From Acidobacteriota bacterium (GTDB lineage Bacteria; Acidobacteriota; Terriglobia; Terriglobales; Acidobacteriaceae), in the NCBI GenBank assembly GCA_021799405.1, contig JAJZAL010000059.1, forward strand, positions 1-23,563: DNA of 23,563 nt, in the 5' to 3' direction. The position numbers were made by a program, and so were the translations under genes. The notes below the pieces were generated by a model that saw only the letters and a list, made by a program, of their open reading frames with translations, had not been told where the DNA came from and made no database searches. Every line of letters starts with the position of its first letter. The stretch's first letter is position 1. Below are positions 5,251-21,286 of the stretch, piece after piece.

Positions 5251-6534
5251 TTACTTTGTCTGTTTCGAGAAAAGTCTCAGAATACCGGCTTTCTGTGATC
5301 CCTGGGCCGTGCCGCTGAGACCTGCTGCGTCTTCTACCATCTGGTGAATCACCTTGGAAATCGGCGACTTCGTCAACGCGACCGAATTCTTCATGCTGAT
5401 TGAGTCGCGCACCGCGATGTAGTCCCCTGGGATCTTCCACTGGGGCTCCATCGTCAGAGCCTTTTTGATACTTTCGTCATCGATTCCGGCCGAACGCGGG
5501 TTATAACGGTTGAGCACCACCTCGGGCCGTCGCGTTCCTACGGGGAAAAACTCCGAGATAATGCGGTTCGAGTTCCGCAGTTCCGTCACGCTTACCTGCG
5601 TCACCAGGTAACTGATCGTTGCCTCGCGAAACAAAGTCCGTGAAAGGGGATCCAGCGTGCTCCCCATATCGAGCACGACATAATCATAGGCCTGCCTCGC
5701 CACCGCGATCAGCCTCGTGCGCGCATCCTCTGAGGAATCAATTCCGATATACCGGTCCGGGGCGGCCAGCACATCCAGGCCAGAACTGTGCTTCGACAAC
5801 AGGCTGGACAGGAAATTCGAGTCGAGCCGTTCAGCGTTCTGCAGCGCATTCAGCGTCGAGTACATCGAGGAAACGCCCAGCAGAATCGAAGCGTCGCCCA
5901 GCGGAAGGCTGAAGTCCACAAACAGGCACCGCTGACTCTTCGCCGCAGCCATTTGCGCAAGCACAACCGCGAAATTGCAGGCGACCGTGGTGGCGCCGGA
6001 CCCACCCTTCACGCTCGCAAAGACAAACATTTTCCCCTGGCTGGCCTTCGCCGGCCGGTCTGCCGGACGCCGCGCAAATGCACGCATCATGGCCGGCTCG
6101 AGCGCAGCCTGCTCCACAGGCAACCGCAGGAATTCTCGTGCCCCGGCACGCATGCACTGCACCAGCAAATCCGAGTCGGTCGACTCGGAAAACACCATGA
6201 CCGTGGCGTTGCTCCGGGAGCAGATCGTCTCCAGCAGGTACAGCGCATGGGAAGGATTCCCATCGAGATCGATCATGATCACGTCATAATCTTCGCGCAG
6301 TAGATTCTCAAGAAAATCGCCTTCCGGATACGCGGGGCATTCCTTCACATTTTGCGGCGGCAGAGCATTCATGGCCGCGGCGATTTCTCTGCGCCGGTCT
6401 TCCTCCGGCGACATGATGACGATGGACAAAGCGTGGGCCCTCAACGTCTGGGGGGCATGACCTCCGGACGGCTTCCCAGCCTGCGTCTTACCGGCCAGCA
6501 ACATATCCAGGGCAGACAGACCTTCTTGCGACAT
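5251..6534 (-). CDS. tadZ: Tad localisation ATPase TadZ/CpaE
   Basis: The 427-residue protein has the two-part CpaE plan. Residues about 30-150 form a receiver-like domain (VIMIDLDG with D89 at the usual phospho-acceptor strand, MVFSESTDSDLLVQCMRAGAREFLRLP). Residues about 165-390 form a MinD/ParA-type ATPase with the deviant Walker A motif KGGSGATT (176-183), LFVDFSLPLGD and YVVLDMGSTLD. In the family this protein places the Tad machine, often at a pole. The ATG at 6534 has an AGGAG ribosome binding site just upstream. It lies 15 bases after tadV and 15 before tadA. The C-terminal 40 residues are less conserved in type. Confidence 0.94.
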   Translation of the reverse strand: MSQEGLSALDMLLAGKTQAGKPSGGHAPQTLRAHALSIVIMSPEEDRRREIAAAMNALPPQNVKECPAYPEGDFLENLLREDYDVIMIDLDGNPSHALYLLETICSRSNATVMVFSESTDSDLLVQCMRAGAREFLRLPVEQAALEPAMMRAFARRPADRPAKASQGKMFVFASVKGGSGATTVACNFAVVLAQMAAAKSQRCLFVDFSLPLGDASILLGVSSMYSTLNALQNAERLDSNFLSSLLSKHSSGLDVLAAPDRYIGIDSSEDARTRLIAVARQAYDYVVLDMGSTLDPLSRTLFREATISYLVTQVSVTELRNSNRIISEFFPVGTRRPEVVLNRYNPRSAGIDDESIKKALTMEPQWKIPGDYIAVRDSISMKNSVALTKSPISKVIHQMVEDAAGLSGTAQGSQKAGILRLFSKQTK

Positions 6535-6549
6535 TCTCTTTCTCCTGCG

Positions 6550-7068
6550 CTATTTTGCGTGGGCAAGAAACGACAGCAGCACGCCTGTCGCGATTGCCGG
6601 CACGTATGGCATTTTCCTGGCAGCCGGGTTGGCCAGGTTCAGATCCGAATGCGGCTTGACGCCGCCCTTCCACGACCCAACCAGCGCTCCAGTATTGCCA
6701 AATAACTCTCCTGCAAACCCCTTCGAAACTGACCACACTATCGCCATTACGCCGCCGGCCAGAAACGTCAGAATCATTGCAATCAACAATTGCGAGGGGC
6801 CAATCCAGGCACCGATGGCTGCCATCAGCTTCACGTCGCCCATGCCCATCCCCCCTAACCAATTCAGAAAGCCAAACACAACGGCCGCAAGCCCCCAGCC
6901 GTAAAAACTCTCCAGCAACCCATGCCCGCCCGCTACCACAATGGAAATGATCGGCCCGGCAACCATAAACGGCAAAACCAGCCAATTTGGGACCCTGCGG
7001 CTCCGAATATCTGTAAACGTGGCAATTGCCACCACAATCAGCGTCGGCCACCACGCTACCGAATGCAT
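6550..7068 (-). CDS. tadV: Prepilin peptidase TadV/CpaA
   Basis: This is a type IV/Flp prepilin peptidase (A24 aspartic protease), 172 residues from the chosen ATG. The two catalytic aspartates are visible: D20 in FTDIRSRRVPNW and D78 in the GxGD motif, here GGMGMGDVKLM. It has about five membrane spans and ends with PYVPAIATGVLLSFLA, the usual PY-P-AIA segment. It would cleave, in the membrane, the leader of the Flp pilin and of pseudopilins. The frame is open to a TTG at 7098, but the extra ten residues (MLCKGCETVV) are polar and would displace the first membrane span, so ATG 7068 is preferred. It is the first gene of the tad block in the window, followed 15 bases later by tadZ. Confidence 0.92.
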   Translation of the reverse strand: MHSVAWWPTLIVVAIATFTDIRSRRVPNWLVLPFMVAGPIISIVVAGGHGLLESFYGWGLAAVVFGFLNWLGGMGMGDVKLMAAIGAWIGPSQLLIAMILTFLAGGVMAIVWSVSKGFAGELFGNTGALVGSWKGGVKPHSDLNLANPAARKMPYVPAIATGVLLSFLAHAK

Positions 7069-7202
7069 CACCACCGTCTCACATCCCTTGCACAGCAAAC
7101 ATCAAATATGGATAGCAATCTCTTCTCCAAAGAAGGCGCCCGTCGATAACCCACTCCAGAAAAGGAACTTAAAGACGAATTTCCACATCACCTGTTCACG
7201 TC

Positions 7203-7696: not shown

Positions 7697-8470
7697 TCAC
7701 ACCCATCCCGCATCGATCACATAGCTTTGGTTGGTGATCGCCGAACTGTCATCGGCAGCCAGAAACATCACCAGCCGCGCCACCTCATCCGGCAGAATCA
7801 TCCTCTTGAGGGCCTGATTCGTCAGCACGTGTGCCGTATACGCCTCCGTGAGCCAGAGCCTCTTTTGCCGTTCCGTCAGGATGGCGCCGGGCAGCACCGC
7901 GTTCACGCGAATGTTGTCTTTGCCGACCTCGTGCGCCAGCGTTCGGGTCATGCCCACAACCGCAGCTTTGGCCGTAACGTAAACAGACTGATGCGTCGAG
8001 GGAATCACCCACCCGATCGAGCTCATGTTGATGATCGAACCCCGCCCCGCTCGCTGCATGACCGGGATCACGGCCTGGGCCGCGAAGAACTGGTGTTTCA
8101 GATTCACGGCCAGCGTCCGGTCCCAGAACTCGGGCGTCACATCCGTCAGTTCGTGGCGAGTGTCATTGCCGGCGTTGTTGACCAGCACATCCACGGCGCC
8201 AAAGCGCTCCACCACGCGGCCAACTTCGCGTTGTAATGCCGAAATCTCCGTCAGGTCACAGTGGCCATAGACCGGCGAATGCCGCATGCTTCCAAGCCGC
8301 GCAACGAGCGACGCAGCGGCCTCGTCCTGCACATCGAAGAAGCACGTCCGTGATCCCTGCCGGGCGAACTCTTCGACGATCGCCTCGCCGATGCCGCTCG
8401 CTCCGCCCGTAACCACCACAACGCGATCCCGCAGGCTCGGATAGGTGGCATACATGCTTTCGCTCTCCAT
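7697..8470 (-). CDS. SDR sugar dehydrogenase, D-xylose/aldose 1-dehydrogenase-like
   Basis: The 257-residue protein is a classical short-chain dehydrogenase. It has the cofactor motif TGGASGIG (21-28), an Asp after strand 2 (D46, in CFFDV) that favours NAD over NADP, NNAG (98-101), the catalytic Ser in INMSSIGW (about 150), and YVTAK (Y164, K168). The start (MYATYPSLRDRVVVVTGG), DVLVNNAGND-RH, the NLKHQFF region, TERQ and the end SYVIDAGWV closely recall the Caulobacter xylose dehydrogenase XylB as I remember it. It probably oxidises an aldose such as D-xylose or L-arabinose at C1 to a lactone. The divergent SMP-30 lactonase would supply the next step. ATG 8470 is preceded by GGGAG at good spacing. 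The sugar is inferred, since related SDRs accept other aldoses. Confidence 0.85.
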   Translation of the reverse strand: MESESMYATYPSLRDRVVVVTGGASGIGEAIVEEFARQGSRTCFFDVQDEAAASLVARLGSMRHSPVYGHCDLTEISALQREVGRVVERFGAVDVLVNNAGNDTRHELTDVTPEFWDRTLAVNLKHQFFAAQAVIPVMQRAGRGSIINMSSIGWVIPSTHQSVYVTAKAAVVGMTRTLAHEVGKDNIRVNAVLPGAILTERQKRLWLTEAYTAHVLTNQALKRMILPDEVARLVMFLAADDSSAITNQSYVIDAGWV

Positions 8471-8718: not shown

Positions 8719-9627
8719 ATGCAGCCCATCCTTCACGAAGATTCGCCCCAACTCGATCTCATCGCCGACTACGCCTGCGAAACAGGAGAGAATCCCCTGT
8801 GGCATCCCTCGGAACAGCGCCTCTATTGGACCGACATTCCAACCGGACGCCTCTTCCGCTACGATCCGGCGTCGAACCATCACGAACAGATTTATCAGGG
8901 ACGCCCCGTCGGTGGTTTCACCTTCGAAGCAGACGGCGGCCTGCTCCTCTTCCGCGATCGCGGAAACATCGCGCTTTGGCGAAACGGTGAAATCGTCACC
9001 ATCGTCCCGGAAATCCCCGAGGAGTTGGACTCCCGCTTCAACGATGTCTTCGCCGATCCGGTTGGACGCGTCTTCTGCGGAACCATGTCCAGCGAAAGCT
9101 CCAAAGGCCGCCTCTACCGGCTCGACGCGGATGGTAGCCTCACCGTCATTCTCGATTCCATCGGATGCTCGAATGGGATGGGATTCAGCCCCGACCGAAA
9201 GACCTTCTACTATACCGACTCCTTCGCCGGCGAAATTTACCGCTTCGACTACGACATCGACACCGGCGCCCTGGCAAATCAAAGAGTCTTCGCCACCATC
9301 CCCGAATCCGACGGCCTCCCCGATGGCCTTGCCGTCGATCGCGAAGGCCGCGTCTGGTCCGCTCTCTGGGACGGCTATGCCATCGTTCGCTTCGACCAAT
9401 CCGGCAACGTCGCAGCCCGCTTTCGCTTTCCAACGCGCAAAACATCCAGCCTCGCCTTCGGCGGAAGCGATCTCACCGATATCTACGTAACGACAGCAGG
9501 GGGTCACACCAGGCAGGAAGACGGCGCTACTGCCGGGGCTCTCTTCCACCTCAGGCTGGATGCCACCGGGCAGCCTGAATTCTTTTCGCGAATCGCATCA
9601 CCATTGCCCTCTCACCAACGCTCTTAA
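8719..9627 (+). CDS. SMP-30/gluconolactonase family sugar lactonase
   Basis: The 302-residue six-bladed beta-propeller lactonase has its metal-site residues in place: E24 (GENPLWH), N152 (CSNGMGFSPD) and D202 (LPDGLAVD), plus the substrate-side N108 (RFNDVFADPVGR). The family hydrolyses aldono-lactones such as xylono- or glucono-1,5-lactone to the free acid, using one divalent metal ion. The length is normal. Its divergent partner is a xylose-dehydrogenase-like SDR, so a xylonolactonase (XylC-type) role is likely. The ATG at 8719 has no ribosome binding site at normal distance; the clear AAAGGAG at 8691-8697 is 21 bases upstream. No aldonate dehydratase is in the window, so the later steps must be elsewhere. 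Confidence 0.88.
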   Translation: MQPILHEDSPQLDLIADYACETGENPLWHPSEQRLYWTDIPTGRLFRYDPASNHHEQIYQGRPVGGFTFEADGGLLLFRDRGNIALWRNGEIVTIVPEIPEELDSRFNDVFADPVGRVFCGTMSSESSKGRLYRLDADGSLTVILDSIGCSNGMGFSPDRKTFYYTDSFAGEIYRFDYDIDTGALANQRVFATIPESDGLPDGLAVDREGRVWSALWDGYAIVRFDQSGNVAARFRFPTRKTSSLAFGGSDLTDIYVTTAGGHTRQEDGATAGALFHLRLDATGQPEFFSRIASPLPSHQRS

Positions 9628-9891: not shown

Positions 9892-11259
9892 GTGAGCACT
9901 GCCGACCTCCGCCAGAGTGCGGCCGCCAGCCATCTGCAGCGCGGCATCACGCTGCGTGGCGCCATCTCTGCCAATGTCCTCAACATGGTCGGCATTGGAC
10001 CGTTCCTCACCATCCCGCTGGTTCTTGCCGACATGGGCGGTCCGCAGGCCATGCTGGGATGGATTCTCGGCGCTGCCATCTCTCTTTGCGACGGGCTGGT
10101 CTGGGCGGAGCTGGGATCGGCCATGCCGCGTTCGGGCGGACCTTACTATTACCTGCTCGAGGCCTTTGGCCCCCGCCGCATGGGACGCCTCGTCAGTTTC
10201 CTCTTTCTGTGGCAGGCCATGCTGATTGGACCACTCTCGATCGCATCCGGGGCGGTGGGCTTTTCGCAGTACGCACGCTATCTGGTGCCCTCGTTGCACG
10301 GAACCCAGATGGAGTGGCTGGCGGCAGCCGTATGCGTCGCCAACATGGCGCTGCTGATGCGCAACATTCGCTCCATCAACGGCCTCTCCGTGATGATTGC
10401 GGTCATCGTGCTGGGCACAACTGCCTGGATAGCCGTCAGCGGAATGCTGCATTTTCATCCTGCCATGGCGTTTGATTTCCCCAGGAACAGCCTGAGCCTC
10501 TCCACGGGTTTCTTCGCCGGTCTGGGATCCGCAACGCTGGTGGCCGTCTACGATTACGGCGGCTACTACAACGTCTGCCTTGTCGGCGAGGAAGTCGAAA
10601 ATCCACGCAAAACCATTCCGCGCTCCATTCTCATTGCGATTGCGCTGGTTGCCGTGCTGTACCTGCTGATGAATGTCTCCATCCTCGGCGTGATTCCGTG
10701 GCGCGCGGCCATGCACTCCAGGGCGATTGCCTCGCTCTTCATCGAGCACCTCTACGGCACCACGGGCGGCAATATCGTAACCGTTCTCATCCTCATAGCC
10801 ACGTTCGGTTCGGTATTTGCGGTGCTCCTCGGCTATTCCAGAATTCCCTATGCCGCAGCCTGCGAAGGCCGCTTCTTCAGCATCTTTGCGCGCCTGCATC
10901 CACGTGGACAGTATCCGGTGGTGGCCGTCGTGGTGATGGGCGTGCTCTCCAGCCTTGCGTGCGTGCTCAGCCTCTCTGAGCTCATCACCACGCTGATTGT
11001 GGTGCAGACCCTGCTGCAGTTCATGGGGCAATGTGTTGCAGTCATCCTGCTGCGCAGGCGCGCGCGCAAAGATCCGGACTGCTTCCGCATGCCGCTCTTT
11101 CCACTGCCCGCTCTCATTGCACTCGCCGGCTGGAGCTATATCGTAGTTTCCAGCGGGGTAAAGTACATGCTCATCGCACTGATTCTTCTCTCCCTTGGAA
11201 TCGCGGGCTTCCTGCTGCATTCGCGTCTGGTGAAGGAATGGCCATTCAAGACCATATGA
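9892..11259 (+). CDS. APC superfamily amino-acid permease
   Basis: The 455-residue integral membrane protein has about 12 hydrophobic spans. The first span carries the APC unwound-helix motif (ISANVLNMVGIGPFLTIPLV), and the loop VGEEVENPRKTIPRSI is diagnostic of amino acid/polyamine/organocation carriers. It should import an amino acid or an amino-acid-like solute. The start is GTG 9892, with GAGG a few bases upstream; the frame has no good upstream alternative. Its stop TGA overlaps the ATG of the following kinase (ATGA at 11256-11259), so the two are translationally coupled. Its placement with a PfkB kinase and a GH4 glycosidase suggests that the substrate may be a glycosylated amino acid rather than a free one; E. 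coli FrlA (fructoselysine) is the known precedent for an APC carrier of that sort. The substrate is inferred. Confidence 0.9.
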   Translation: MSTADLRQSAAASHLQRGITLRGAISANVLNMVGIGPFLTIPLVLADMGGPQAMLGWILGAAISLCDGLVWAELGSAMPRSGGPYYYLLEAFGPRRMGRLVSFLFLWQAMLIGPLSIASGAVGFSQYARYLVPSLHGTQMEWLAAAVCVANMALLMRNIRSINGLSVMIAVIVLGTTAWIAVSGMLHFHPAMAFDFPRNSLSLSTGFFAGLGSATLVAVYDYGGYYNVCLVGEEVENPRKTIPRSILIAIALVAVLYLLMNVSILGVIPWRAAMHSRAIASLFIEHLYGTTGGNIVTVLILIATFGSVFAVLLGYSRIPYAAACEGRFFSIFARLHPRGQYPVVAVVVMGVLSSLACVLSLSELITTLIVVQTLLQFMGQCVAVILLRRRARKDPDCFRMPLFPLPALIALAGWSYIVVSSGVKYMLIALILLSLGIAGFLLHSRLVKEWPFKTI

Positions 11260-12200
11260 CCCAACGCTACGACATCACGGTGGTCGGCGAAATCTTCAAC
11301 GATCACGTCTTCTCCGGATTCGCGCAATGGCCGCGCCCGGGTGAGGAAGTTTTTGCCGAAAGCTATATCCGCGAAATAGGCGGCGGAGCAGCTATCACCT
11401 CATGTGCGCTGGCTCGGCTTGGGCGCAGGGTCGCCGTAGTAGGCGTGATTGGCAAAAGTGATGAATGGAGCCGTAAACGGCTGCACGATTTCGGCGTCGC
11501 CACTGACGGGCTCAAACCGTCTGCCCTCGATACCGCCGTTACCGTCAGCATCTCCACCAGTCAGGACAGGTCATTCTTTACCTGGGCTGGCGCCAATCGC
11601 GAACTGCCGGAGCATCTTGCTGATTCCGCCGTGCAGAGGATTCTGCTCGCCTCGCGCCATGTTCATTTCGCCATGCGGCTCGATAGAAACCTGGCATCGG
11701 CGTTGCTGCCGCTGCTCCATGACACCGGCTGCGGCACTTCCATCGACCCCGGATTTCACCCCGATTGGTATCGCCTTCCTGAAAACCGGCAGACCCTCGG
11801 CGAGTGCGACTACTTCTTTCCGAACCAAAACGAAGGGGAGTTGATCACCGGACGCACCCACCCGCAAGAAATCATGTCGAGCCTGCACAAGCTGGGAATT
11901 CGCGGCGCAGTTCTCAAGCTGGGACGCCGGGGAGCCGCAGCCGCGCGCGACGGGAAGTTGCTCTTCGCTCTTCCGCCGCCCATGCATACTGTCGACACAA
12001 CCGGCGCCGGCGACGCCTTCGACGCCGGATTCATCGATTCGATCTTGGATGACCCGGCAACAGAACGGGCGCTGCGGCGGGGTTGCGCCTGCGGCGCGCT
12101 CTCGACGCGCTCGGCAGGAGGCATTGCGGCTTTGCCCGCCAAAGAGGAACTGGAAGCAATGGATGAACAGGTCACGATCGGAGACGCATATGGCGAATAA
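11256..12200 (+). CDS. PfkB-family sugar kinase (first of two)
   Basis: The 314-residue ribokinase-fold kinase has PfkB motif 1 as IGGGAAITSCALARLG (about 41-56) and motif 2 as DTTGAGDAFDAGFI (about 247-260), with D253 as the catalytic base and GAG as the anion hole. It phosphorylates a hydroxymethyl group on a sugar or nucleoside with ATP. ATG 11256 is chosen because it overlaps the permease stop as ATGA; an in-frame ATG at 11238 (six residues earlier) is possible but has its AGGA directly against it. The 3' end overlaps the GH4 start by 11 bases. Tight overlap with the GH4 gene, whose enzymes often need a 6-phosphate, suggests that it makes the GH4 substrate. No PTS gene is in the window. 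Confidence 0.88.
   Translation: MTQRYDITVVGEIFNDHVFSGFAQWPRPGEEVFAESYIREIGGGAAITSCALARLGRRVAVVGVIGKSDEWSRKRLHDFGVATDGLKPSALDTAVTVSISTSQDRSFFTWAGANRELPEHLADSAVQRILLASRHVHFAMRLDRNLASALLPLLHDTGCGTSIDPGFHPDWYRLPENRQTLGECDYFFPNQNEGELITGRTHPQEIMSSLHKLGIRGAVLKLGRRGAAAARDGKLLFALPPPMHTVDTTGAGDAFDAGFIDSILDDPATERALRRGCACGALSTRSAGGIAALPAKEELEAMDEQVTIGDAYGE
12180..12183 (+). promoter_or_regulatory. Ribosome binding site fixing the GH4 start
   Basis: GGAG at 12180-12183 lies 6 bases before ATG 12190, inside the end of the kinase gene. It supports starting the GH4 protein at MANKSKISLIGG rather than at upstream codons in the open frame. Confidence 0.6.
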
Positions 12201-13596
12201 ATCGAAAATTTCGCTCATTGGCGGCGGAGGCGTTCGCACGCCGCTCGTCATCTTCGGAGTCAATGAGGCTGCGCAACTGTTGGGAGCCGAAGAACTCGCC
12301 CTCTACGATCCGGACAGCGAGCGCGTGCAGGTCATAGCCGATCTCGGTCGCGCCATTGTCGAACGCGAAGGCGGAAAGCTCCGCATCCGAGTCGCCGCCT
12401 CCGCCGAGGAGGCCGTCGCCGGTGCCTCCTTTGTCTTGCACAGCATCCGCGTGGGCGGCATTACCGGGCGCGCTCATGACGAAAATATCTCCGTCGATCA
12501 CGGATACCCGGGCCAGGAAACCACGGGCCCCGGTGGCGTGGCGATGGGCCTGCGTACCGTCAACGCGGCGATAGAATACGCGCGGCTCGTCGAGAAACAC
12601 GCTCCGGATGCGTGGTTCATCAACTTTGCCAATCCCGCCAGCATGATCACGCAGGCTGTTTCGCACCACACCGGAGCGCGCGTCGTCGGCATCTGCGACA
12701 CGCCGGCAGAGCTCTTCCACCACATCGCCGCTGCGCTTCAGATAGATCCCGAGCGGGTCATCTGCAAGTATCTCGGCCTCAATCACCTGGGATGGATTCG
12801 CGAAGTTCAGGTGGACGGCAAGGATGTGCTTCCGGAAATTCTCAAGCGTGACGATCTGCTCGACCAGCTCTATTCTGCGAACTTGTTTGACCATGACCTG
12901 CTGCGCTGCCTGCAACTGCTGCCAACCGAATATCTCTACTTCTATTACTGCCGCCGGCGCGCTCTCGAAAACCAGCAGAAGGCGGGCACCACGCGAGGCG
13001 AAGAGATCGGTCGCATGAACGAAAAACTCTTTGCGGATCTCACGCATCATCTGCGTTCCGGCCATGCGGCAAAAGCGATTGAGGTCTATACCAGCTACCT
13101 GAATCAGCGCTCTGGTTCCTATATGAAGCTGGAAGCCAGCGCGGGCTCGGCCTTTGACAGGGAGAACGCCTGGCATGACGATCCCTTTCGAACGTCAACC
13201 GGCTATCACCGCATTGCTCTCAACGTGATGAAAGCGCTGAGCGGAACGGACCCGAAACGCATCGTCGTCAATGTTCCCAATCGCGGAGCGATCAACGAAG
13301 TCGATTGCAATGACATTGTCGAAGTGCCCTGCTCCATCAGCAACAACCATATTCAGCCCGAGGCGTGCGGCTCTTTGCCCGAGGCCGTCCGGGGACTCGT
13401 CCTCGCGGTGAAGGCCTATGAGCGTGCCGCCATTGATGCGGCGGTCTCCGGCTCCAGCGTGCTCGCTCGAAAGGCCATGCTGCTCTATCCTCCCATTGGA
13501 GAATGGGAGCCATCCAAAGAATTGCTCGACGCATTTGTGGCCCATCATCCTGCGTTGAGTCACTTCGACTGCTGCGTGCAGCACGCAACCGACTGA
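12190..13596 (+). CDS. Glycoside hydrolase family 4, NAD-dependent (phospho-)glycosidase
   Basis: The 468-residue length is normal for GH4. The N-terminal Rossmann motif ISLIGGGGVRTP (8-18) binds NAD. QETTGPGG (109-116), INFANPAS (144-151), the metal-site Cys in GICDTP (C169) and His in LGLNHLGWIREV (H199) are the family landmarks. These enzymes work by oxidation at C3, elimination and re-addition, and need Mn2+ or a similar metal plus NAD. The protein is cytoplasmic. The four residues after the metal Cys mark GH4 subgroups; as I recall, CDMP marks phospho-alpha-glucosidases and CN-V/I-P marks phospho-beta-glucosidases. CDTP here fits neither exactly and is nearer the first. It follows a PfkB kinase with an 11-base overlap, which suggests a phosphorylated substrate. 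The precise substrate and the alpha or beta preference are open. Confidence 0.92.
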   Translation: MANKSKISLIGGGGVRTPLVIFGVNEAAQLLGAEELALYDPDSERVQVIADLGRAIVEREGGKLRIRVAASAEEAVAGASFVLHSIRVGGITGRAHDENISVDHGYPGQETTGPGGVAMGLRTVNAAIEYARLVEKHAPDAWFINFANPASMITQAVSHHTGARVVGICDTPAELFHHIAAALQIDPERVICKYLGLNHLGWIREVQVDGKDVLPEILKRDDLLDQLYSANLFDHDLLRCLQLLPTEYLYFYYCRRRALENQQKAGTTRGEEIGRMNEKLFADLTHHLRSGHAAKAIEVYTSYLNQRSGSYMKLEASAGSAFDRENAWHDDPFRTSTGYHRIALNVMKALSGTDPKRIVVNVPNRGAINEVDCNDIVEVPCSISNNHIQPEACGSLPEAVRGLVLAVKAYERAAIDAAVSGSSVLARKAMLLYPPIGEWEPSKELLDAFVAHHPALSHFDCCVQHATD

Positions 13597-13678
13597 GCCC
13601 GCGGATAAGCATTTCGATCCCGGAAACGACGCCACGGCAGGCTCTCAGCGGTCTTCCTTCAAGCTTCGGCTCCGTCGT

Positions 13679-13706
13679 TTGCACGGCATACGCAAGTTGT
13701 TAGACT
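13679..13706 (+). promoter_or_regulatory. Possible promoter before the PNGase A gene
   Basis: TTGCAC (13679-13684) and TAGACT (13701-13706) are 16 bases apart, about 70 bases before the PNGase A start in the 180-base gap after the GH4 gene. The matches to consensus are modest (3 and 4 of 6). Confidence 0.25.
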
Positions 13707-13776
13707 GAACCCGTTGTCCGCTGCCTCCCGCGTCATTTGAGCCGGGTTTCCACGGGCATCACATGGACAGGTGACG

Positions 13777-15636
13777 ATGAACAGTACCCGCGCATGGCGC
13801 GTGATCTCAGTGGTAGTGGTTTTGTTGTCGACAACGGCCGTTTTGGTTTCAGCGCGCGCGCAGTCCGTCCCGGAAACGCGCCTTGTCCCCGGTTCGCTTG
13901 TCATGGGATCGCGGGTCGTCGCATCGGCCGAACCTCCCGTATCGCGGCCGTCCACCACCCCATGTACCGTCACCCTCTTTCAGCACGAAGCATTCGATGA
14001 TCACGGCAATGGCTCCTCCATGGCCGCACGCTCGCACCCGTTTCAGTTTGTCCCTCCCAGCGGATGCACCGGCAAATGGGGCAAAGTTGTACTCGAAGCA
14101 AATTTCTCGGTCCCGGCCGGACGCCAGTTCGACCGCACTGCCTCCATATGGCTCGGCGGGGTGAATCTCTACTTCGGCACCACCATGGAGCCCGAACCGA
14201 ATCTCGCCCAGCACTGGCACGTCGAGCGCGATCTCACGGACTACAGCGCGCTCTTCCAGAAGCCACAGGCAGGGCAGATCATCCTCAACAACTGGATCAG
14301 CCCCACAACCAATCAGCCCATCTACGTAACCGCCAGCCTGCTCTTCTATCCGCGCGAGGCCGGAAGCACCGCGCCAATCGTGGCCGACCGCGTTTACCCG
14401 TTGAGCAGCGATCCCGCCGGGGCGCAGCAGGCGCTCAATACGCAGAACGACATCCTCTCGCGCCGGTTCACCTTCCCCCGCAACGTCGAACGCGCCTACC
14501 TTGACGTCATCGCCCAGAGCCAGGCGCACGACGAACGCTGGTATACCTGCGTGAACAAGCGATATCTGGCAGAGACGCGCGACTACTCGCTCGAAGCCTT
14601 CGAAGCCTGCGACGGCGGCAGCTTTCGCGGCGTCGAGGTGCTCGTGGATGGAAAACCCGCCGGACTCGCGCCCGTCTATCCGTGGATCTTCGCCGGCGGC
14701 ATCGCTCCGCACCTCTGGCTGCCCACACCCGGGATTCAAACCGTCAACTTCATTCCATTCCGGGTCGATCTCACACCCTTCGCCGGACTGCTCGACAATG
14801 GCAAACCCCATATAGTCAGCGTGCGCGTCCTCGGCGCGGATCACTTCTTCAACGTGGCGGCCAATCTGCTCCTCTACCAGGATCATCACAGCGCGCAGCT
14901 CCACGGGAAACTGCTCCAGGACACCCTGAGCGAAGCACAGCCCGCTGGCCTCACCGTGCAGGACACCCTCCATGCCAATCACGCCGGGCGCATCGTCGGC
15001 GCCATCCAGACCCACATGGCGCAGTCCTATCTCATCCAGGGACTGCTGCACACCTCGCGCGGAAACATGATCACCACCGTGCGCTGCACAGAAGATTTCC
15101 GCAATCACCAGACCTTCCAACGCCCCGGCGCGAAGCGGTACAACGAAACGATTGACCAGGACACCACCGTCTCGATGACGGTCCACCGCAAGCTCAACGG
15201 TCGGCTCCAGCACAGCTTCGTCTTCACGCAGCAGGATCCCCTTTCGCTTGCCGTTCGCAAGACCATGATCACCACCGGGCAGGATTTCACCGCGCTCGTC
15301 GCGGTGCACCAGGGACACCAAATTACCGTCCGCAGCACCAATCCCTCGGGTGCAGCCTACCATGCGCTCCTCAACGAAAGCCTCGACACTCGCGATCGCG
15401 CCTACGGCAAGACCATCCCGCCTCCCCTCGATCGCAGCAGCTTCAACCATGAAGAATCCGGGCGGGAAACAGTCAACTTCAAGGACTCCCTCGGTAGCTG
15501 CTACCAGACCGAAATCCTGTCGCACGAAGAACGCCTCACCGCAATCCACGAAGGCGTCGGATGCCCGGACCACGGCAACCACCTCCATAGCCGCTCGCGT
15601 CCCGATCATCCCTGGCTCATGCCGCTGCAACCGTAG
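13777..15636 (+). CDS. Secreted PNGase A-like peptide N-glycosidase
   Basis: The 619-residue protein begins with a signal peptide (basic start, hydrophobic VISVVVVLLSTTAVLVS, likely cut after ARA near residue 28). The body matches my memory of plant peptide-N4-(N-acetyl-beta-glucosaminyl)asparagine amidase A (PNGase A, Pfam PF12222): GRQFDRTASIWLGGVNLYFG, HVERDLTDYSALFQKPQ, FTFPRNVERAYLDV, DERWYTCVNKRYL, FRGVEVLVDGKPAG, YPWIFAGGIAPHLWLP, VDLTPFAGLLDNGKPH and ANLLLYQDH occur in the same order. The family releases whole N-glycans from glycopeptides by cleaving the Asn side-chain amide. ATG 13777 is preferred over GTG 13771 because AGG at 13769-13771 gives a 5-base spacer. It would act outside the cytoplasmic membrane and supply glycans or peptides to the neighbouring permease, kinases and GH4 enzyme; that link is inferred. 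Confidence 0.88.
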   Translation: MNSTRAWRVISVVVVLLSTTAVLVSARAQSVPETRLVPGSLVMGSRVVASAEPPVSRPSTTPCTVTLFQHEAFDDHGNGSSMAARSHPFQFVPPSGCTGKWGKVVLEANFSVPAGRQFDRTASIWLGGVNLYFGTTMEPEPNLAQHWHVERDLTDYSALFQKPQAGQIILNNWISPTTNQPIYVTASLLFYPREAGSTAPIVADRVYPLSSDPAGAQQALNTQNDILSRRFTFPRNVERAYLDVIAQSQAHDERWYTCVNKRYLAETRDYSLEAFEACDGGSFRGVEVLVDGKPAGLAPVYPWIFAGGIAPHLWLPTPGIQTVNFIPFRVDLTPFAGLLDNGKPHIVSVRVLGADHFFNVAANLLLYQDHHSAQLHGKLLQDTLSEAQPAGLTVQDTLHANHAGRIVGAIQTHMAQSYLIQGLLHTSRGNMITTVRCTEDFRNHQTFQRPGAKRYNETIDQDTTVSMTVHRKLNGRLQHSFVFTQQDPLSLAVRKTMITTGQDFTALVAVHQGHQITVRSTNPSGAAYHALLNESLDTRDRAYGKTIPPPLDRSSFNHEESGRETVNFKDSLGSCYQTEILSHEERLTAIHEGVGCPDHGNHLHSRSRPDHPWLMPLQP

Positions 15637-15694
15637 GACGTGACGAACCGTCGCGCCCTCTTGTGCCAGGGGAATCGCAGGCTATCATTGCTGC

Positions 15695-16654
15695 ATGGAC
15701 GTTGTCGGTGTCGGCCTGAATGCCACAGATACCCTGATCCCTCTCTCCCGTTATCCCGAATCGGGTGAAAAAATCGAGATTCATTCCGTCTCCGTTCTGC
15801 CCGGCGGTCAGGTCGCGAGTGCCATGATCGCTTGTCAGCAATGGGGCCTGCAGGCCCGGTATGTCGGCAAGGTCGGCGAGGACAGCGCCGCGAACCTGCA
15901 TCGATCCGAGTTCGAGAAGGCCGGTGTAGACGCCAGACTCATTACCTCCAAAGGATGCGCCAGTCAACAGGCGATCATCATGGTGGACGATGCCGGAGAA
16001 CGCACCGTCCTCTGGAAGCGAGATGAAAAGATCACCCTCCGTCCCGACGATCTCAAGCGGGAATGGATCACGGACGCTCGTGCGCTTCACCTCGACGGCC
16101 ACGACACGGAAGCAGCCATCCTCGCTGCCACCTGGGCTCGTGAAGCCGAAATCCCCGTCGTCGCCGACTTGGACAACCTCTATCCAAACGTCGAAAACCT
16201 GCTGACAAAGGTCGACTACCTGATCGTAAGCCGCGATATCCCGGAGCAGCTCACCGGCAATCCGGATCTTGCGCAGGCGCTCATCGAAACCAAAGAGCGA
16301 TTCGGGTGCAGCCTCACCGCTGTCACTCTCGGAGCAGACGGCGCGCTTGCCTGGGACGGACGCGACTTCTGCTACGTACCGGCATTTCATGTCGAAGTCG
16401 TCGACACCACCGGGGCCGGCGACATCTTCCACGCGGGATTCATCTACGGGCTCCTCAACGGATGGCAGCTCTCACGAGTCCTCGATTTCGCCTGTGCCGC
16501 CGCCGCCCTCAACTGCACTGCCCTGGGCGCGCGTGGAGGAATTCAGCCCGTGCATAACGTTCAGGCCCTGATGAGCACGGGAATGCGCAATCCCGCTTGC
16601 ACCGATCTGAATGATCTCGGGATGCTGAGCCGTCCGCTCCACTCTCCCGAATAA
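15695..16654 (+). CDS. PfkB-family sugar kinase (second)
   Basis: The 319-residue ribokinase-fold protein has motif 1 LPGGQVASAMIACQQWG (about 35-51) and motif 2 DTTGAGDIFHAGFIYG (about 237-252), with D243 as the catalytic base. It is clearly a different subfamily from the kinase at 11256. The N-terminal VVGVGLNATDTLIPLSRYPESGEK and the lid region recall ketohexokinase/sulfofructose kinase-like (YihV-type) members more than ribokinase. It follows the PNGase A gene by 58 bases on the same strand and converges on the GT-C gene with only 23 bases between stops. The ribosome binding site before ATG 15695 is weak. The substrate is unknown; a released hexose or an aldonate-pathway intermediate would fit the context. 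Confidence 0.85.
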   Translation: MDVVGVGLNATDTLIPLSRYPESGEKIEIHSVSVLPGGQVASAMIACQQWGLQARYVGKVGEDSAANLHRSEFEKAGVDARLITSKGCASQQAIIMVDDAGERTVLWKRDEKITLRPDDLKREWITDARALHLDGHDTEAAILAATWAREAEIPVVADLDNLYPNVENLLTKVDYLIVSRDIPEQLTGNPDLAQALIETKERFGCSLTAVTLGADGALAWDGRDFCYVPAFHVEVVDTTGAGDIFHAGFIYGLLNGWQLSRVLDFACAAAALNCTALGARGGIQPVHNVQALMSTGMRNPACTDLNDLGMLSRPLHSPE

Positions 16655-16677: not shown

Positions 16678-18222
16678 TCATCGCTTCTCAACGGCCGCCG
16701 CTTTCGGCTCGAACTCCAGCACCTTCACCCCGTCATACACGCCCAGCCGGTGAACCGTGTACTGTGCCGACGCCTTTTGCCTGAGCCAGTCGAGCGTCTT
16801 GTAGGAAAACTCGAAGCCCATCGCGAGGAATCGTTCGCGCTTTCGAGTGGCCTTTTCGAGAAACGCGGTGCCAATCTGCTTTGCTTGGGCGGTGAGCGCA
16901 TATGGCAGCGGAACCACCGGCACCGTCAGCCGGTAGTAGGCAAGCGGCGAGAAGTACCGGCTCTCCTTTGCTGAATGCAGCGGCATATCTACATAATTCG
17001 ACTCCACGTAGCTGCTGCAGACCAGCACCGGAGCGTTGTCTCGAGAAGCATTCTTTTCCGCTACGGCGATCGCATACTTCCAAGGTGTGCCGTGTTGTCT
17101 CGCCGAGGGCGAAAGAATGTACACGCTCAAGGTCGCCGCCACAAGTGTGAGGCAGAATGCCAACTCCACGGCTCGCGATTTGAATTGATCGATACAGCAG
17201 GCCCAGAAAAGCGCAATGCCCGGTATTGCGATCAGAATGTGGCGAGTGGCAAAGATGTGAATGCTGGTACCCACGCTGACCCCATAAAGGAGCAGGAGGG
17301 GAGCCAGCATGAGGGGCAGACAAAGTTCCATTTGCCATCTCTGAAAGTGAGGCTTCACGGATCTTCGAATCGTGAACGCCGCCACGAGGATCGCGATGAT
17401 GAATGCAACTGGTTGGACCCCTGGCGCAAACATCTCCAGAAGCAGGATCGGACTGGGAGCCGATTGATATACATGAGTCCCGGCTGTGCGGAACATGCCC
17501 ACCAGTTTGGGAACCAGTGGCAAACTGATCAGCACGAAAACGCTCAATCCGGCGATGAGCTGTTTCCAGAAGGCGAATCCGGAATGGCGCTTCCAAATGA
17601 TGAAGGTAAGCAGGAAAGCCGGAAGGACCGCCGCGGCAAGGAAGTGGCAATAAATAATCAGGCCTGACAGCGCCCCAAACAATCCCGCCAGCCAGGCCGA
17701 ATCGCTTTTTCGCAACTGCAGGAGAACAAGGATGGTCGTGGTTGTCGTCAGCGCGACAAGCGCATACGGCCTGACATCAATGGCAGCAAACACTACGATT
17801 GGATTCGCACAGAAAAGGATGACGGCAACGATGGCAGCCTCGCGCTCAAAGAGCCGGCGCGCGCACAGGTAGAAGACGTACGTCGCGCACAGCATCGCCA
17901 GCACCGACGGTAGCCGCATGCCGATTTCGGTGGTGCCGGTGAGCCGGGTCGTAAACCAGAGGTAGTAGTTATAGATCGGCGAGCCCAGCGGTCCCAGCCG
18001 CGTCCAAATCTGCGAGAGACCCTTTTCAATAATCCAGTAATTGGCGGTTTCGTCCAACCGCAATGGTGAGTCTATGGCGATGAACCAACAAGCGACTGCC
18101 GCGATGAGTGCGAGGCTATATCCGGCAGAAACGCCGAGCCCGCGCCAACGCTGGCCCATCTCCCCCGGCGCCTCGGGCGGCGCCACGGAACCACCCGGGA
18201 TCTTGTCCTTAAGAGTCTCCAA
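16678..18222 (-). CDS. GT-C membrane glycosyltransferase (PMT/ArnT-like)
   Basis: The 514-residue protein has about ten membrane spans and the GT-C signature in its first periplasmic loop: IDSPLRLDETANYW, with Asp-Glu as the likely catalytic/metal motif. This is followed by GSPIYNYYLW, MRLPSVLAMLCATYVFYLCARRLF and DVRPYALVALT, typical of the PMT_2/DUF2029-like families. These enzymes transfer a sugar from a polyprenyl-phosphate donor to an acceptor on the outer face of the inner membrane. The start is TTG 18222, supported by GAGGAG 6 bases upstream. It is the last gene of the minus-strand glycan operon, 36 bases after the GT2 gene. The DPM1-like enzyme in the same operon could make its donor. 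The C-terminal 120 residues form a soluble domain. The acceptor is unknown. Confidence 0.85.
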   Translation of the reverse strand: METLKDKIPGGSVAPPEAPGEMGQRWRGLGVSAGYSLALIAAVACWFIAIDSPLRLDETANYWIIEKGLSQIWTRLGPLGSPIYNYYLWFTTRLTGTTEIGMRLPSVLAMLCATYVFYLCARRLFEREAAIVAVILFCANPIVVFAAIDVRPYALVALTTTTTILVLLQLRKSDSAWLAGLFGALSGLIIYCHFLAAAVLPAFLLTFIIWKRHSGFAFWKQLIAGLSVFVLISLPLVPKLVGMFRTAGTHVYQSAPSPILLLEMFAPGVQPVAFIIAILVAAFTIRRSVKPHFQRWQMELCLPLMLAPLLLLYGVSVGTSIHIFATRHILIAIPGIALFWACCIDQFKSRAVELAFCLTLVAATLSVYILSPSARQHGTPWKYAIAVAEKNASRDNAPVLVCSSYVESNYVDMPLHSAKESRYFSPLAYYRLTVPVVPLPYALTAQAKQIGTAFLEKATRKRERFLAMGFEFSYKTLDWLRQKASAQYTVHRLGVYDGVKVLEFEPKAAAVEKR

Positions 18223-18228
18223 TTCACT

Positions 18229-18234
18229 CTCCTC
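18229..18234 (-). promoter_or_regulatory. Strong ribosome binding site for a TTG start
   Basis: GAGGAG on the minus strand (18234-18229) lies 6 bases before TTG 18222 and decides the start of the GT-C gene. Confidence 0.65.
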
Positions 18235-18258
18235 GTTGTGGCGATGCCCGCCATTCCA

Positions 18259-19221
18259 TCATCCGTTATATATCTGCGCATCTCTGAGGCTTTGCCTCAC
18301 CTTCAGCCGCGCGCTCACTCGCTCAACAATCCGCGAGTCCCGCAGATACCGCCGCCAGCCCGACGGCCCCAGCGCAAGCAATTGGAGAAGAACTCCGGCT
18401 ACTCGCACAGATTCCCCGCGTGCGGCAGCGGCAAGCGTTGCATTCACCGCGTTTGAGGCCAGTGCGGCCTGCCTCACTTTCCTCTTTTCTCCCTCCGTCG
18501 CCTGCCATGCTTCAAAATGCCGGTGGAAGACAGTCTCAAGCTGATGCTCCCATTCTCCCGGTTGCAGTTTCCGTGCAATGGTCTGCGATTCTGGGTGAAC
18601 GCGAAAAGCGGTCAGCGGCTCTGCGAGAAACCGCACCGGTCCCATGGCGCCAAGCCGAAGCCATAACTCCCAATCGGCGGCCAGCCAGAGCGACTCGTCC
18701 AGCCCGCCGGAATCCAATGCCGCCCTGCGTCGAAATACAGGCGACGGGATCGCGATGAAATCCTGAACCAGAAGGTGCCCGAGGAAGCGCCCCGCGAGCA
18801 CAGTGCCTTCTTCCAGCGGGCACTTCCACGGCCCCAGGGGCTGTCCTTTTGGCCCCACAAAGATCGAGTTGTGCAAGACCATCGCCCCCTCCGCCTGCGC
18901 CACCTCGTTCATCACCTTCGCCATCCGGCCCGGAAGCCAGAGATCGTCCTGATGCAGAAAGCAGGCCCATTCTCCCCGGGCCTCGCGCAATCCAAGGTTC
19001 GTCGTGGCTATCCAGTTTCCAATCCTGCCGGGCCTCATGAGCCGGAGGGGAAGCGTCTTCGCAAATTCTTCAATAATCTCGATCGTCCGGTCCGTGGAAC
19101 CATCATCCACGATCACGATTTCGATCTCCTCGCAATATTGGTCGCGCACGCCTTGGAGCGCAGCCCCGAGGTACTCCTCGCCGTTATACGTCGGAATGAT
19201 GACTGAGATGGTTGGGCTCAT
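18259..19221 (-). CDS. Family 2 glycosyltransferase
   Basis: This is a 320-residue GT-A fold enzyme. It has the N-terminal nucleotide-sugar segment ISVIIPTYNGEEYLGAAL, then VIVDDGSTDRT, the metal-binding acidic motif HQDD (in CFLHQDDLWLPGRM) and the acceptor-side DWELWLRLG, all typical of soluble GT2 family members. It would add a sugar from a nucleotide donor to a lipid-linked or protein acceptor at the cytoplasmic membrane face. The open frame extends 49 residues upstream, but ATG 19221 (MSPTISVIIP) is the natural start because the upstream part is low-complexity and unlike GT2. It overlaps the methyltransferase gene end by 38 bases, so the genes are translationally coupled. The sugar and acceptor are unknown. 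Confidence 0.88.
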   Translation of the reverse strand: MSPTISVIIPTYNGEEYLGAALQGVRDQYCEEIEIVIVDDGSTDRTIEIIEEFAKTLPLRLMRPGRIGNWIATTNLGLREARGEWACFLHQDDLWLPGRMAKVMNEVAQAEGAMVLHNSIFVGPKGQPLGPWKCPLEEGTVLAGRFLGHLLVQDFIAIPSPVFRRRAALDSGGLDESLWLAADWELWLRLGAMGPVRFLAEPLTAFRVHPESQTIARKLQPGEWEHQLETVFHRHFEAWQATEGEKRKVRQAALASNAVNATLAAAARGESVRVAGVLLQLLALGPSGWRRYLRDSRIVERVSARLKVRQSLRDAQIYNG

Positions 19222-20173
19222 TTGCTTCTTTCTTGAATGCCAATGCGAACGCCTCAGTACCGCGTGCGCGCCAGGCCCGAAAAATGAGATCGGGCAGAAG
19301 AATAAAAGCTCGCATGCCAACGGAGACGAGGCGAAGCACTCTCTTCGCTGAGGTTTCCGCTTGGGCAATATAACTAACGCTACTCGCGTAGTAGCACCAT
19401 GCGGCGTCCAGCGTTGGAGTCTTGAAAATCATGAGATCCATTCCCGCAAGAGCACATAGTCTCGACAGCGATTCCTTGCTGAAGAAGTTCAAATGCCGCG
19501 GAAGATCGAGCAGAGTCCAGTGCTCCCCAAACCACTGCCCACGTTCAATTCCATAAAGCGTCGGCAGTTGAAAAAAGAGCTGGCCACCTGGTCTCAAATA
19601 AGAACAAGCTAATCGCAACGTGTCCAATGGATCCGGCACGTGTTCGATCACGCTCCAGAGTATGATCGCGTCGAAACTATTCTCCTCCCAGAGCCCCGGC
19701 CTCAGTTCGCCAACATGCACCTCAAACCCGAGCTCGGCGCGTATGGCACTAACCAACTCTTCGTTGTACTCGACCGCTCGCACATCCCAACCCGCGCGGT
19801 GGGCTGCGTCTATGAAATCTCCCGCCCCTGCGCCAACGTCCAGTAATTTGCTTCCTCTGCTATAGCGCTTCAAGCGCCGCACGCGACGCCAAGTCGTGAT
19901 GTGGCGCAGGATCTTCCACAACGGCCATCCCGGTTCCTTCCACGTCACCCGATACGGGGCATAGTCAGTGGAGTACGCCGCACGAAGCTCGGCATCACTC
20001 GGCTGGGGAGTTTGCATGACATGGCCGCAGGCCATGCACCGCGATAACCGGAAACGGACCTCGTACCCCGGCCTGCAAAGGTCGCGCCCCTCGCGGAGGA
20101 AAGTCCAATGGTCTTCCCCGCAAATTGTGCAGCGAGTTCCGAAACCGTTTGTTGTGCACTCTGTCTCGGGCAT
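19184..20173 (-). CDS. Class I SAM-dependent methyltransferase with N-terminal zinc ribbon
   Basis: In this 329-residue protein, residues 15-49 carry two Cys pairs (C15-x2-C18 in RCTICGED and C46-x2-C49 in RCMACGHV), a zinc-ribbon-like element often seen in sugar/envelope methyltransferases. Motif I of the methyltransferase is KLLDVGAGAGDF (109-120), followed by VRAVEYNEEL and IILWSVIEHVPDP (170-182), then a GGQLFFQLP strand. This matches the Methyltransf_23 type. It probably O- or C-methylates a sugar of the glycan built by the neighbouring transferases. ATG 20173 overlaps the stop of the upstream membrane gene (TAATG), and the 3' end overlaps the next GT2 gene. The C-terminal region (about 250-329) is less clear. 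Confidence 0.87.
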   Translation of the reverse strand: MPETECTTNGFGTRCTICGEDHWTFLREGRDLCRPGYEVRFRLSRCMACGHVMQTPQPSDAELRAAYSTDYAPYRVTWKEPGWPLWKILRHITTWRRVRRLKRYSRGSKLLDVGAGAGDFIDAAHRAGWDVRAVEYNEELVSAIRAELGFEVHVGELRPGLWEENSFDAIILWSVIEHVPDPLDTLRLACSYLRPGGQLFFQLPTLYGIERGQWFGEHWTLLDLPRHLNFFSKESLSRLCALAGMDLMIFKTPTLDAAWCYYASSVSYIAQAETSAKRVLRLVSVGMRAFILLPDLIFRAWRARGTEAFALAFKKEANEPNHLSHHSDV

Positions 20174-21174
20174 TAAGAACGCTTCCCTCCATCACGCGCG
20201 AATTTGAACACCAAAGCTCGCTCAAGGCCTAGCGCCGCTACGCCGATACCAGCCACAACAAAGCAGGATGCAAGCACCAGGATTCGATTTTCCAGCGCCC
20301 ATTGCGCCGCCACGGCCACAGGCGTGCCGAACAGATGCAGTGCGAAAGCATAGCCGAGTTCGGTGACCCCAAGCCCACCCGGGGTGATGGCCAGAGCATA
20401 CGCAAGGGCCGCGAGCGGCGTCGCCGCAGCCAGTTGCCAGATGGAAACATGCGCTCCCACCGCCTCGGCAACCTGTCCAACCATCAAAATCTGAACTACG
20501 AACCGCGCTGCGGAAAGCATCATCAACTGACGGGCCAAACCCGCATTCAGAAATCCTGATTGCTCCAGATCGGCAAATCGACGAATGACCCGGTTTCGGG
20601 CCCACTTGCTGTTTGCGGTTGCTGACAGCACGGAGCGGGCGAATCGAATTGACGGCCCGACCGCCAGGACGGCGAAAATAGTCATGATCGTCGCGGCAAT
20701 CATGTACACGGCCGCCCCACCCTTGGAAAACCAGGTAACTCCGGACGCTATCGCAAGAAAGCCCACAATGAATACGTCAAAGCTCTGCTCGTACAACGTG
20801 CCTGCCGTTCCGCGCTTCAAAGGGCTGCCGTAGAAATAAGTGCCGACCGTGCGAGCCGCTGACATCGAGATCTGGACCGGAAGAACCTGTCCGCACACCA
20901 CGCCCACGCTGGTAATGGCGAAGGACGCCGCAGCCGAAGGCGCGGAGTCTGAAGATCGGCGCAGGAAAGCATCGATCTTGCGCCACTTCAGGCTGGAAAG
21001 ATAGATATGCAGCGCAGTCAGCGCAACTAGCCCGGCGAATGCAACCGCGCTTACATCCCGCAGATGCTCGAATGTCGCATACAGGTTGATCCTGCCAATC
21101 TTGATGAGCGCGACAATGAGGATGCCGCTAAGCGCAAATGAAACGGCTAACAGAAATCCGCGCCGAAGGGACAC
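20173..21174 (-). CDS. UPF0104/LPG-synthase-TM family membrane protein (AglD/flippase-like)
   Basis: The 333-residue protein has about eight membrane spans. The hallmarks are the first span (GFLLAVSFALSGILIVALI), HIYLSSLKWRKIDAFLR, the FAITSVGVVCGQVLPVQISMSAA segment and TPGGLGVTELGYAF near the C-terminus, the conserved P-GG-G--E motif of the lysylphosphatidylglycerol-synthase transmembrane family (PF03706). Members next to DPM1-like GT2 genes (archaeal AglD region, bacterial hopanoid/glycan loci) are thought to help move or transfer lipid-linked groups across the membrane. There is no catalytic LPG synthase domain, so lysinylation is not expected. The start is GTG 21174, preceded by AAGGCGG. 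The stop overlaps the methyltransferase start. Confidence 0.85.
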   Translation of the reverse strand: MSLRRGFLLAVSFALSGILIVALIKIGRINLYATFEHLRDVSAVAFAGLVALTALHIYLSSLKWRKIDAFLRRSSDSAPSAAASFAITSVGVVCGQVLPVQISMSAARTVGTYFYGSPLKRGTAGTLYEQSFDVFIVGFLAIASGVTWFSKGGAAVYMIAATIMTIFAVLAVGPSIRFARSVLSATANSKWARNRVIRRFADLEQSGFLNAGLARQLMMLSAARFVVQILMVGQVAEAVGAHVSIWQLAAATPLAALAYALAITPGGLGVTELGYAFALHLFGTPVAVAAQWALENRILVLASCFVVAGIGVAALGLERALVFKFARDGGKRS

Positions 21175-21286
21175 TAGCGCCGCCTTAAGCCAAGAATGCT
21201 GAGGAAGAAGCTGCCGTCGGCAATCTCAACGCCCAACCCTCCGGGGAGATTAGCCGAAACTGCGGTGCGCTGTATGGGTTCAGAGT

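Follow-up and report, generated by a model that had tools for sequence, protein, structure and literature searches.

The APC-PfkB-GH4 triplet and its conservation

We examined a stretch of 23,563 nucleotides from an Acidobacteriota bacterium of the Acidobacteriaceae (contig JAJZAL010000059.1 of assembly GCA_021799405.1; this whole stretch is hereafter the window), in which three consecutive genes on the forward strand encode a permease, a kinase and a glycosidase. The permease belongs to the APC superfamily (AA_permease_2; 9892-11259, GTG start, PF13520 at 142.5 bits), the kinase to the PfkB family of sugar kinases (PfkB1; 11256-12200, PF00294 at 128.9 bits) and the glycosidase to the NAD- and metal-dependent family GH4 (12190-13596), with the domains PF02056 (138.6 bits) and PF11975 (157.3 bits) above their cut-offs of 23.2 and 24.1. 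The start of PfkB1 overlaps the permease stop by 4 bases (ATGA) and the start of GH4 overlaps the end of the kinase gene by 11 bases, and these two overlaps suggest that the triplet is co-transcribed; the argument stops at GH4 and is not extended to the two genes that follow on the same strand. The first of them, coding for a PNGase A-family protein with a signal-peptide-like N-terminus as judged by eye (13771-15636, GTG start, PF12222 at 180.6 bits, cut-off 25.3), starts 174 bases past the GH4 stop, and the second, coding for a ribokinase-like PfkB-family kinase (PfkB2; 15695-16654, 159.3 bits), starts 58 bases past the stop of the PNGase A gene. The coordinates, the gene names and both overlaps had been given in an earlier note on this DNA, and they are borne out by our gene calls and domain matches, as is the presence downstream, on the same strand, of the PNGase A-family gene (PF12222) and of a second PfkB.

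The neighbourhood search for the triplet that the earlier note had called for was carried out. When species genomes were scanned with the window GH4 protein, 80 loci were obtained, of which only L004-L008 (GH4 identity at least 51%) entered the comparison set, the others being more distant relatives. Among 396 genomes of the phylum a close GH4 (E <= 1e-70) was present in 22, two of which (G108 and G392) were fetched only in part, and among 398 genomes of the family a close GH4 was present in 32, one of which (G540, with the short locus L144) was used solely in the tree. The 48 loci finally compared (L004-L008, L104-L123, L146-L165 and L173-L175) were searched with one set of query proteins at score thresholds of our own choice, L002 and L003 being kept out because their contigs have the same lengths as those of L146 and L147. 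These loci are not independent, since they share ancestry, form groups of close relatives and include L104, the locus of the near relative G001.

PfkB immediately precedes GH4 in 46 of the 48 loci, which indicates that their spacing is not due to chance. The gap, measured to the first aligned GH4 residue, ranges from -15 to +87 bases in 45 loci and is +123 bases in one; the exceptions are L112, where MIOX lies between the two genes, and L122, where no PfkB was seen. An APC gene is present in the fetched stretch of 42 loci, upstream in 34 and downstream of GH4 in eight, with five of the upstream genes (L117, L160, L162, L163 and L174) at a distance of 1.6-7.3 kb. All seven loci L002-L008, with GH4 identities of 51-72%, contain APC, PfkB and GH4 in this order and on one strand, the APC gene of L005 being split over two overlapping frames; six are Acidobacteriota records and the seventh (L004) is an Asticcacaulis contig. 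The triplet is thus kept beyond the window and is a real, conserved unit. PfkB2 is probably not part of it.

Deacylase and inositol genes in the related loci

A gene for a PIG-L/LmbE deacylase was found in 36 of the 48 loci and one for an outer-membrane receptor-like protein in 31. In L003 the latter combines CarboxypepD_reg and PF25183 beta-barrel domains, as in TonB-linked receptors, with a TonB_dep_Rec match below cut-off. The PIG-L partners have a long C-terminal part and an N-terminus that resembles a signal peptide by eye, their length being mostly about 880-990 residues, and the Pfam scan of those from L003, L005 and L171 revealed a PIG-L domain together with an NPCBM-associated region. 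The motif AHPDDE, followed some 113 residues further on by D-x-H-x-x-H, is intact in 32 of the 32 proteins having the N-terminal part, after four of the 36 cluster members devoid of it had been dropped. The HPDD and the histidine pair agree with the HXDD + H motif by which LmbE enzymes bind metal; according to PMC4101496, the known ones act mostly on substrates containing N-acetylglucosamine (GlcNAc) such as GlcNAc-inositol (GlcNAc-Ins) and GlcNAc-phosphatidylinositol (GlcNAc-PI).

At least one of IolA, IolB, IolD, IolE, IolG and MIOX is encoded in 20 of the 48 loci, and the curated models recognise IolG at 456.8 bits (cut-off 355), IolD at 918 bits (715) and IolB at 336.6 bits (205). In L174 the genes for IolG, IolD, IolE, IolB, PfkB and GH4 are consecutive on one strand, with IolG, IolD and IolB above cut-off. 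A rescan of eight further loci placed 10 of 10 inositol proteins above cut-off, among them IolB in L007, L116, L122, L161, L164 and L165 and IolD in L122, L123 and L165. The MIOX gene is found between PfkB and GH4 in L112, adjoins GH4 in L160 and, by genome coordinates, is located in the L107, L109, L155, L156 and L162 loci too. A methylmalonate-semialdehyde dehydrogenase (MMSDH) gene of the IolA type follows GH4 in L113 and occurs also in L115.

Two of these arrangements deserve a description of their own. The row in L174 (L174:2405-10696), which also has a transaldolase-like gene at the side of IolG, offers the plainest case of a GH4 gene joined to an iol operon. In L107, L109, L155 and L156 the genes near GH4 encode, together with MIOX, a LacI and a LysR-like regulator, KdgD, a D-galactonate-type MFS transporter and a glucarate-dehydratase-like protein (816.6 bits, cut-off 828.7), which amounts to a glucarate branch that may come after MIOX.

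The association extends to whole genomes. In the 398 genomes of the family MIOX is encoded in 130, IolB (above cut-off) in 49 and both in 3. Among the 32 GH4 carriers MIOX is present in 20, IolB in 11 and either of them in 31, as compared with 145 of the other 366 genomes (Fisher p = 4.1e-11, odds ratio 47); the single-gene tests gave p = 3e-4 for MIOX and p = 6e-4 for IolB. Within 3 kb of GH4, MIOX is found in 6 of the 20 MIOX carriers and IolB in 6 of the 11 IolB carriers, some of them of the same genus. When the MIOX/IolB label is mapped on a quick tree built from the 32 GH4 proteins, at least four changes are needed (three to four when only starred branches are counted). Either lineages swapped their inositol route while keeping GH4 or GH4 moved between lineages having different routes, and under both readings GH4 stays with an inositol route.

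Enzyme type of GH4 and identity of the kinase and the carrier

A profile of 21 GH4 relatives was compared with the sequences of the PDB, in which nine distinct sequences of phospho type, namely 6-phospho-alpha/beta-glucosidases (three of one enzyme), scored 265-374 bits, as against 124-129 bits for five other GH4 sequences of the AglA, LplD and TM0752 types. With the AlphaFold model of the window protein (pLDDT 93.5) the first 38 chains retrieved by Foldseek are all of phospho type, and the identity to solved members of this type is 24-32%. The residues Arg87 and Arg269, which we take to contact the phosphate, occur in all 56 of the GH4 proteins aligned, that of the window included. Arg87 aligns with an arginine in every phospho-type sequence shown, LplD having a gap at this place; in the HMMER alignment Arg269 aligns with an arginine of 1up6/1up7, and the nearest arginine of 1s6y/5c3m lies three residues off. 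Judged by profile and predicted fold, the GH4 protein belongs to the 6-phospho-glycosidase type of the family. The presence of a kinase gene before GH4 makes sense with an enzyme of this type, and the suggestion of the earlier note, that phosphorylation in the absence of a phosphotransferase system (PTS) precedes redox-elimination cleavage by GH4, would fit, since the protein falls in the 6-phospho-glycosidase half of the family.

The metal site may also inform on the linkage. Cys169 is conserved in 56 of 56 and Asp170 in 54 of 56 aligned GH4 proteins, and Asn198-His199 were also noted in the window enzyme. A Cys-Asp as opposed to a Cys-Asn motif separates alpha from beta enzymes in GH4, and the motif found here resembles that of the 6-phospho-alpha enzyme 6wbt (ICDMP) and not the Cys-Asn of beta enzymes (LCNVP), so that an alpha-linked glycoside is the likely substrate. 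The glucosamine of mycothiol and that of glycosylphosphatidylinositol (GPI) are alpha-linked to inositol. The use of chitobiose in a Chb-like manner, with PIG-L as a chitobiose deacetylase, was also contemplated and set aside, given the recurrence of inositol genes and the Cys-Asp motif as in the alpha-type 6wbt.

The earlier note had seen in the triplet the logic of the fructoselysine (frl) system, in which FrlA is an APC permease, as the name of its NCBIfam model agrees. The logic holds as regards the carrier, the ATP-dependent kinase and an enzyme cleaving the phosphorylated compound, and the GH4 domains confirm that the third enzyme is not the FrlB deglycase. However, the permease reaches 97.7 bits with the FrlA model NF008466 (cut-off 800), and PfkB1 and PfkB2 reach 51.3 and 83.0 bits with the FrlD model NF007321 (cut-off 247), by which homology to frl is ruled out.

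A proposed route for glycosyl-inositol and its alternatives

We propose that in this soil bacterium the triplet supplies the cytoplasmic half of a system that breaks down a sugar bound to myo-inositol, likeliest an (N-acyl)glucosaminyl-inositol shed by other organisms, a proposal towards which, taken with its full mechanism, we lean by a narrow measure; that inositol is one product of the pathway we hold with considerably more confidence. In this mechanism the outer-membrane receptor and the secreted PIG-L protein would handle the N-acyl aminosugar-inositol outside the cytoplasm, and the latter would remove the N-acyl group, exposing a free amine. Deacylations of this kind are those of MshB, Mca and PIG-L on GlcNAc-Ins, mycothiol conjugates and GlcNAc-PI, respectively. 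The amine-bearing glycoside, probably glucosaminyl-inositol (GlcN-Ins), would be imported by the APC carrier, whose amino-acid type this free amine would explain. The sugar would next be phosphorylated by PfkB1, probably at C6, and GH4 would then promote an NAD-dependent redox elimination with release of the sugar 6-phosphate and myo-inositol, the latter being consumed via MIOX or via the IolG/E/D/B route, depending on the lineage. The organism of the window would run this pathway with a PIG-L and a MIOX encoded elsewhere in its genome. Both are present in G001, where the gene of a 955-residue PIG-L protein is divergent from that of a second APC permease (L171:6769-11098) on a contig other than that of the triplet.

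Several observations weigh against this proposal. The window itself contains neither a PIG-L nor an inositol gene, and among the 48 fetched stretches 12 have no PIG-L, 28 no inositol gene and six (L148, L149, L164, L165, L173 and L175) no visible APC gene. The more distant GH4 relatives of the scan (L009-L042) show no same-strand triplet; many have PfkB on the opposite strand, L009 and L010 have an APC-like gene there, and in L035 PfkB comes directly after GH4. The best NCBIfam match of the PIG-L partners is Mca in three of three tested, ahead of MshB and BshB1, with scores of 42.6, 35.5 and 39.0 bits against a cut-off of 277, and all matches to Mca, MshB and BshB are far below cut-off. As for the inositol genes, IolE scores 184.6 bits, below its cut-off of 290, and L113 and L115 are weaker cases because MMSDH serves valine breakdown too. 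In one GH4 carrier, G346, both MIOX and IolB are missing, the Fisher p values are optimistic because genomes and loci share ancestry, and the label changes of the tree are also explicable by transfer of GH4 between lineages. In G001 no glucosamine-6-phosphate deaminase (NagB) was found above cut-off (52.9 bits against 236.9) and no glucarate dehydratase was found, a weak point as regards the further use of any glucosamine 6-phosphate (GlcN-6-P) formed there.

The Asticcacaulis locus (L004:1438-13849) has neither PIG-L nor inositol genes, a further point on the same side. On either side of its triplet are genes for GH125, GH2, GH92 and a phosphoesterase/phospholipase C-type protein. The locus looks like one for a mannosylated glycan, and its enzymes could strip such a glycan resembling those of GPI or of glycosylinositol phosphorylceramides (GIPC), but could also fit N-glycans. 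A GH4 relative of Streptomyces (L009:7674-9779) is also near a phospholipase C-type protein (PF04185 + PF05506). No firm hint on the substrate was obtained from the actinobacterial GH4 relatives, in whose GC-rich DNA the gene calls are poor.

The alternative that survives best, which we nevertheless consider unlikely, is the uptake of a neutral inositol glycoside of the galactinol, glucosyl-inositol or mannosyl-inositol type, with PIG-L acting on another component of the same material. The link to inositol does not tell which sugar is attached to it, and both the lack of a clear NagB in G001 and the mannosidase families GH92 and GH125 in the Asticcacaulis locus would be in agreement with a neutral sugar. 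The frequency of PIG-L with an intact metal site suggests, on the contrary, an N-acyl aminosugar, and a carrier of the APC type would be unusual for a neutral sugar.

A somewhat smaller chance is given to PfkB1 being an IolC-like kinase that acts downstream in the inositol pathway, in which case GH4 would cleave the unphosphorylated glycoside. IolC is a PfkB protein, and in L174 and L148/L149 the PfkB gene is beside iolB/D/E/G and no second PfkB was seen in the part fetched. However, with the IolC model TIGR04382 (cut-off 300) PfkB1 scores 84.9 bits and five GH4-adjacent orthologs 73-113 bits, so that an identity with IolC was rejected and the IolC-like role retained only as a weaker rival. 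Furthermore, GH4 is assigned to the phospho type, and among GH4 carriers of the MIOX type, in which no role is left for IolC, the gene next upstream of GH4 is again a PfkB in 19 of 19 fetched loci (20 genomes, G540 not being fetched in full).

The earlier note had envisaged glycosyl-amino acids of the GlcNAc-Asn type or small N-glycan fragments, freed with the help of PNGase A, as the substrate, and this we now regard as improbable. In its favour the PNGase A gene comes after the triplet both in the window and in G001, the carrier is of amino-acid type and mannosidase families lie beside the triplet of L004. Nevertheless, PNGase A is present in only one of the 48 loci, namely L104 of G001, a near twin of the window, and is absent from the fetched stretches of L002-L008. 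In the family it is encoded in 131 of 398 genomes and is rarer in GH4 carriers (5 of 32) than in the others (126 of 366; Fisher p = 0.03). These counts rule out an association with N-glycans or PNGase as a conserved feature of the triplet, and PNGase A is probably a bystander. In the clusters of open reading frames from the loci inositol genes recur and N-glycan genes do not, and the recurrent partners, the PIG-L/LmbE deacylase and the genes of inositol catabolism, point instead to an inositol glycoside. In addition, PNGase A (EC 3.5.1.52) frees the glycan from asparagine and would therefore not make glycosyl-asparagine. A second PNGase A-family gene is located elsewhere in G001 (G001:C137:54043-54945).

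Hardly credible is a permease for free amino acids in a trio of genes with independent roles, even though the NCBIfam model that the permease matches best is that of a general amino-acid transporter subfamily (176.8 bits, far below the cut-off of 556.8). The gene overlaps speak against it, as does the conservation of the trio across Acidobacteriota loci and an alphaproteobacterial contig.

The window contains further genes. Just upstream of the triplet a short-chain dehydrogenase/reductase (SDR) gene (7697-8470, reverse strand), whose best NCBIfam match is D-xylose 1-dehydrogenase (330.7 bits, below the cut-off of 400), is divergent from an SMP-30/gluconolactonase-family gene (8719-9627, forward strand), and the two look like an aldose dehydrogenase/lactonase pair; the pair is also found in G001, and none was seen in the other loci of the same comparison. 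Downstream, the reverse-strand genes at 16678-22348 encode a PMT_2 protein, two family 2 glycosyltransferases, a methyltransferase and an LPG_synthase_TM protein, and probably form a surface-glycan locus. At 2046-7098, also on the reverse strand, pilus genes encode two T2SSF proteins, a T2SSE ATPase, an AAA protein and a prepilin peptidase, which we name Tad-type, with the AAA protein as CpaE-like.

Significance and comparison with known systems

Inositol glycosides, among them mycothiol, GPI anchors and GIPC lipids, are products of actinomycetes, fungi and plants. Among the matches listed in the open-access literature, judged mostly by title and abstract, there was no paper on bacteria living on a glycosyl-inositol core, and there was nothing usable on the phosphate-binding residues of GH4 or on routes combining a kinase with GH4. 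In a review on glycosyl-inositols (PMC11907402), the words "catabol" and "degradation" occur 0 times in the main text. The locus is a glycoside-use system with a probably new substrate. In its boldest form, which we advance tentatively and think doubtful as a whole, the proposal would be that mycothiol or GPI/GIPC headgroups of actinomycetes, fungi and plants are scavenged by Acidobacteriota and by a small number of further soil bacteria. The acyl-cysteine or acetyl group would be stripped by a Mca-like amidase outside the cell, the APC carrier would import GlcN-Ins as an amine, PfkB would convert it to GlcN-Ins 6-phosphate and a GH4 of new specificity would yield GlcN-6-P and inositol, which would constitute the first catabolic pathway for glucosaminyl-inositol. 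If the proposal is true, a GH4 enzyme would gain a new kind of substrate, the large secreted PIG-L family would gain a catabolic role and the free amine of the substrate would account for an amino-acid-type carrier in a sugar operon. The conserved partners, and no longer the adjacent PNGase A, would thereby come into focus.

The PNGase H+ enzymes of Acidobacteria, which are presumably PNGase A-like, resemble the window protein by its membership of PF12222 and its match to the solved PNGase Bb (9vla) with 191 bits, although the window protein is not conserved with the triplet. PNGase H+ enzymes have been characterised from Acidobacteria, with five named homologs active and the remaining candidates negligible (PMC7348039), and PMC4231336 is listed as a further paper on PNGases of Acidobacteria. 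The frl system of E. coli shares with the triplet an amino-acid-type permease, a PfkB kinase and phosphorylation before cleavage, but here the third enzyme is GH4 instead of the FrlB deglycase and the recurring neighbours are inositol genes. According to PMC5270733, FrlD phosphorylates the conjugate and FrlB cleaves it. The PIG-L partners have in common with the LmbE-like deacylases MshB, Mca and PIG-L the HXDD + H motif, and differ from them in their secreted appearance, their length and their scores far under the equivalog cut-offs.

The GH4 6-phospho-glycosidases (GlvA 1u8x, 6vc6, 6wbt, BglT 1up6 and Gan4C 5c3m) share with the window enzyme the same fold, the NAD-binding GGG, the Cys/His metal site and, in the sequences shown, Arg87. 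Known members commonly serve PTS routes, whereas an ATP-dependent kinase and an APC carrier accompany the enzyme here. Finally, the iol operon and the MIOX route are represented in the GH4 loci by IolG, IolD and IolB equivalogs, an IolA-type MMSDH and MIOX. To our knowledge canonical iol operons include neither GH4 nor PIG-L nor APC, and in comparison with them the inositol genes found here resemble the end section of a glycoside pathway.

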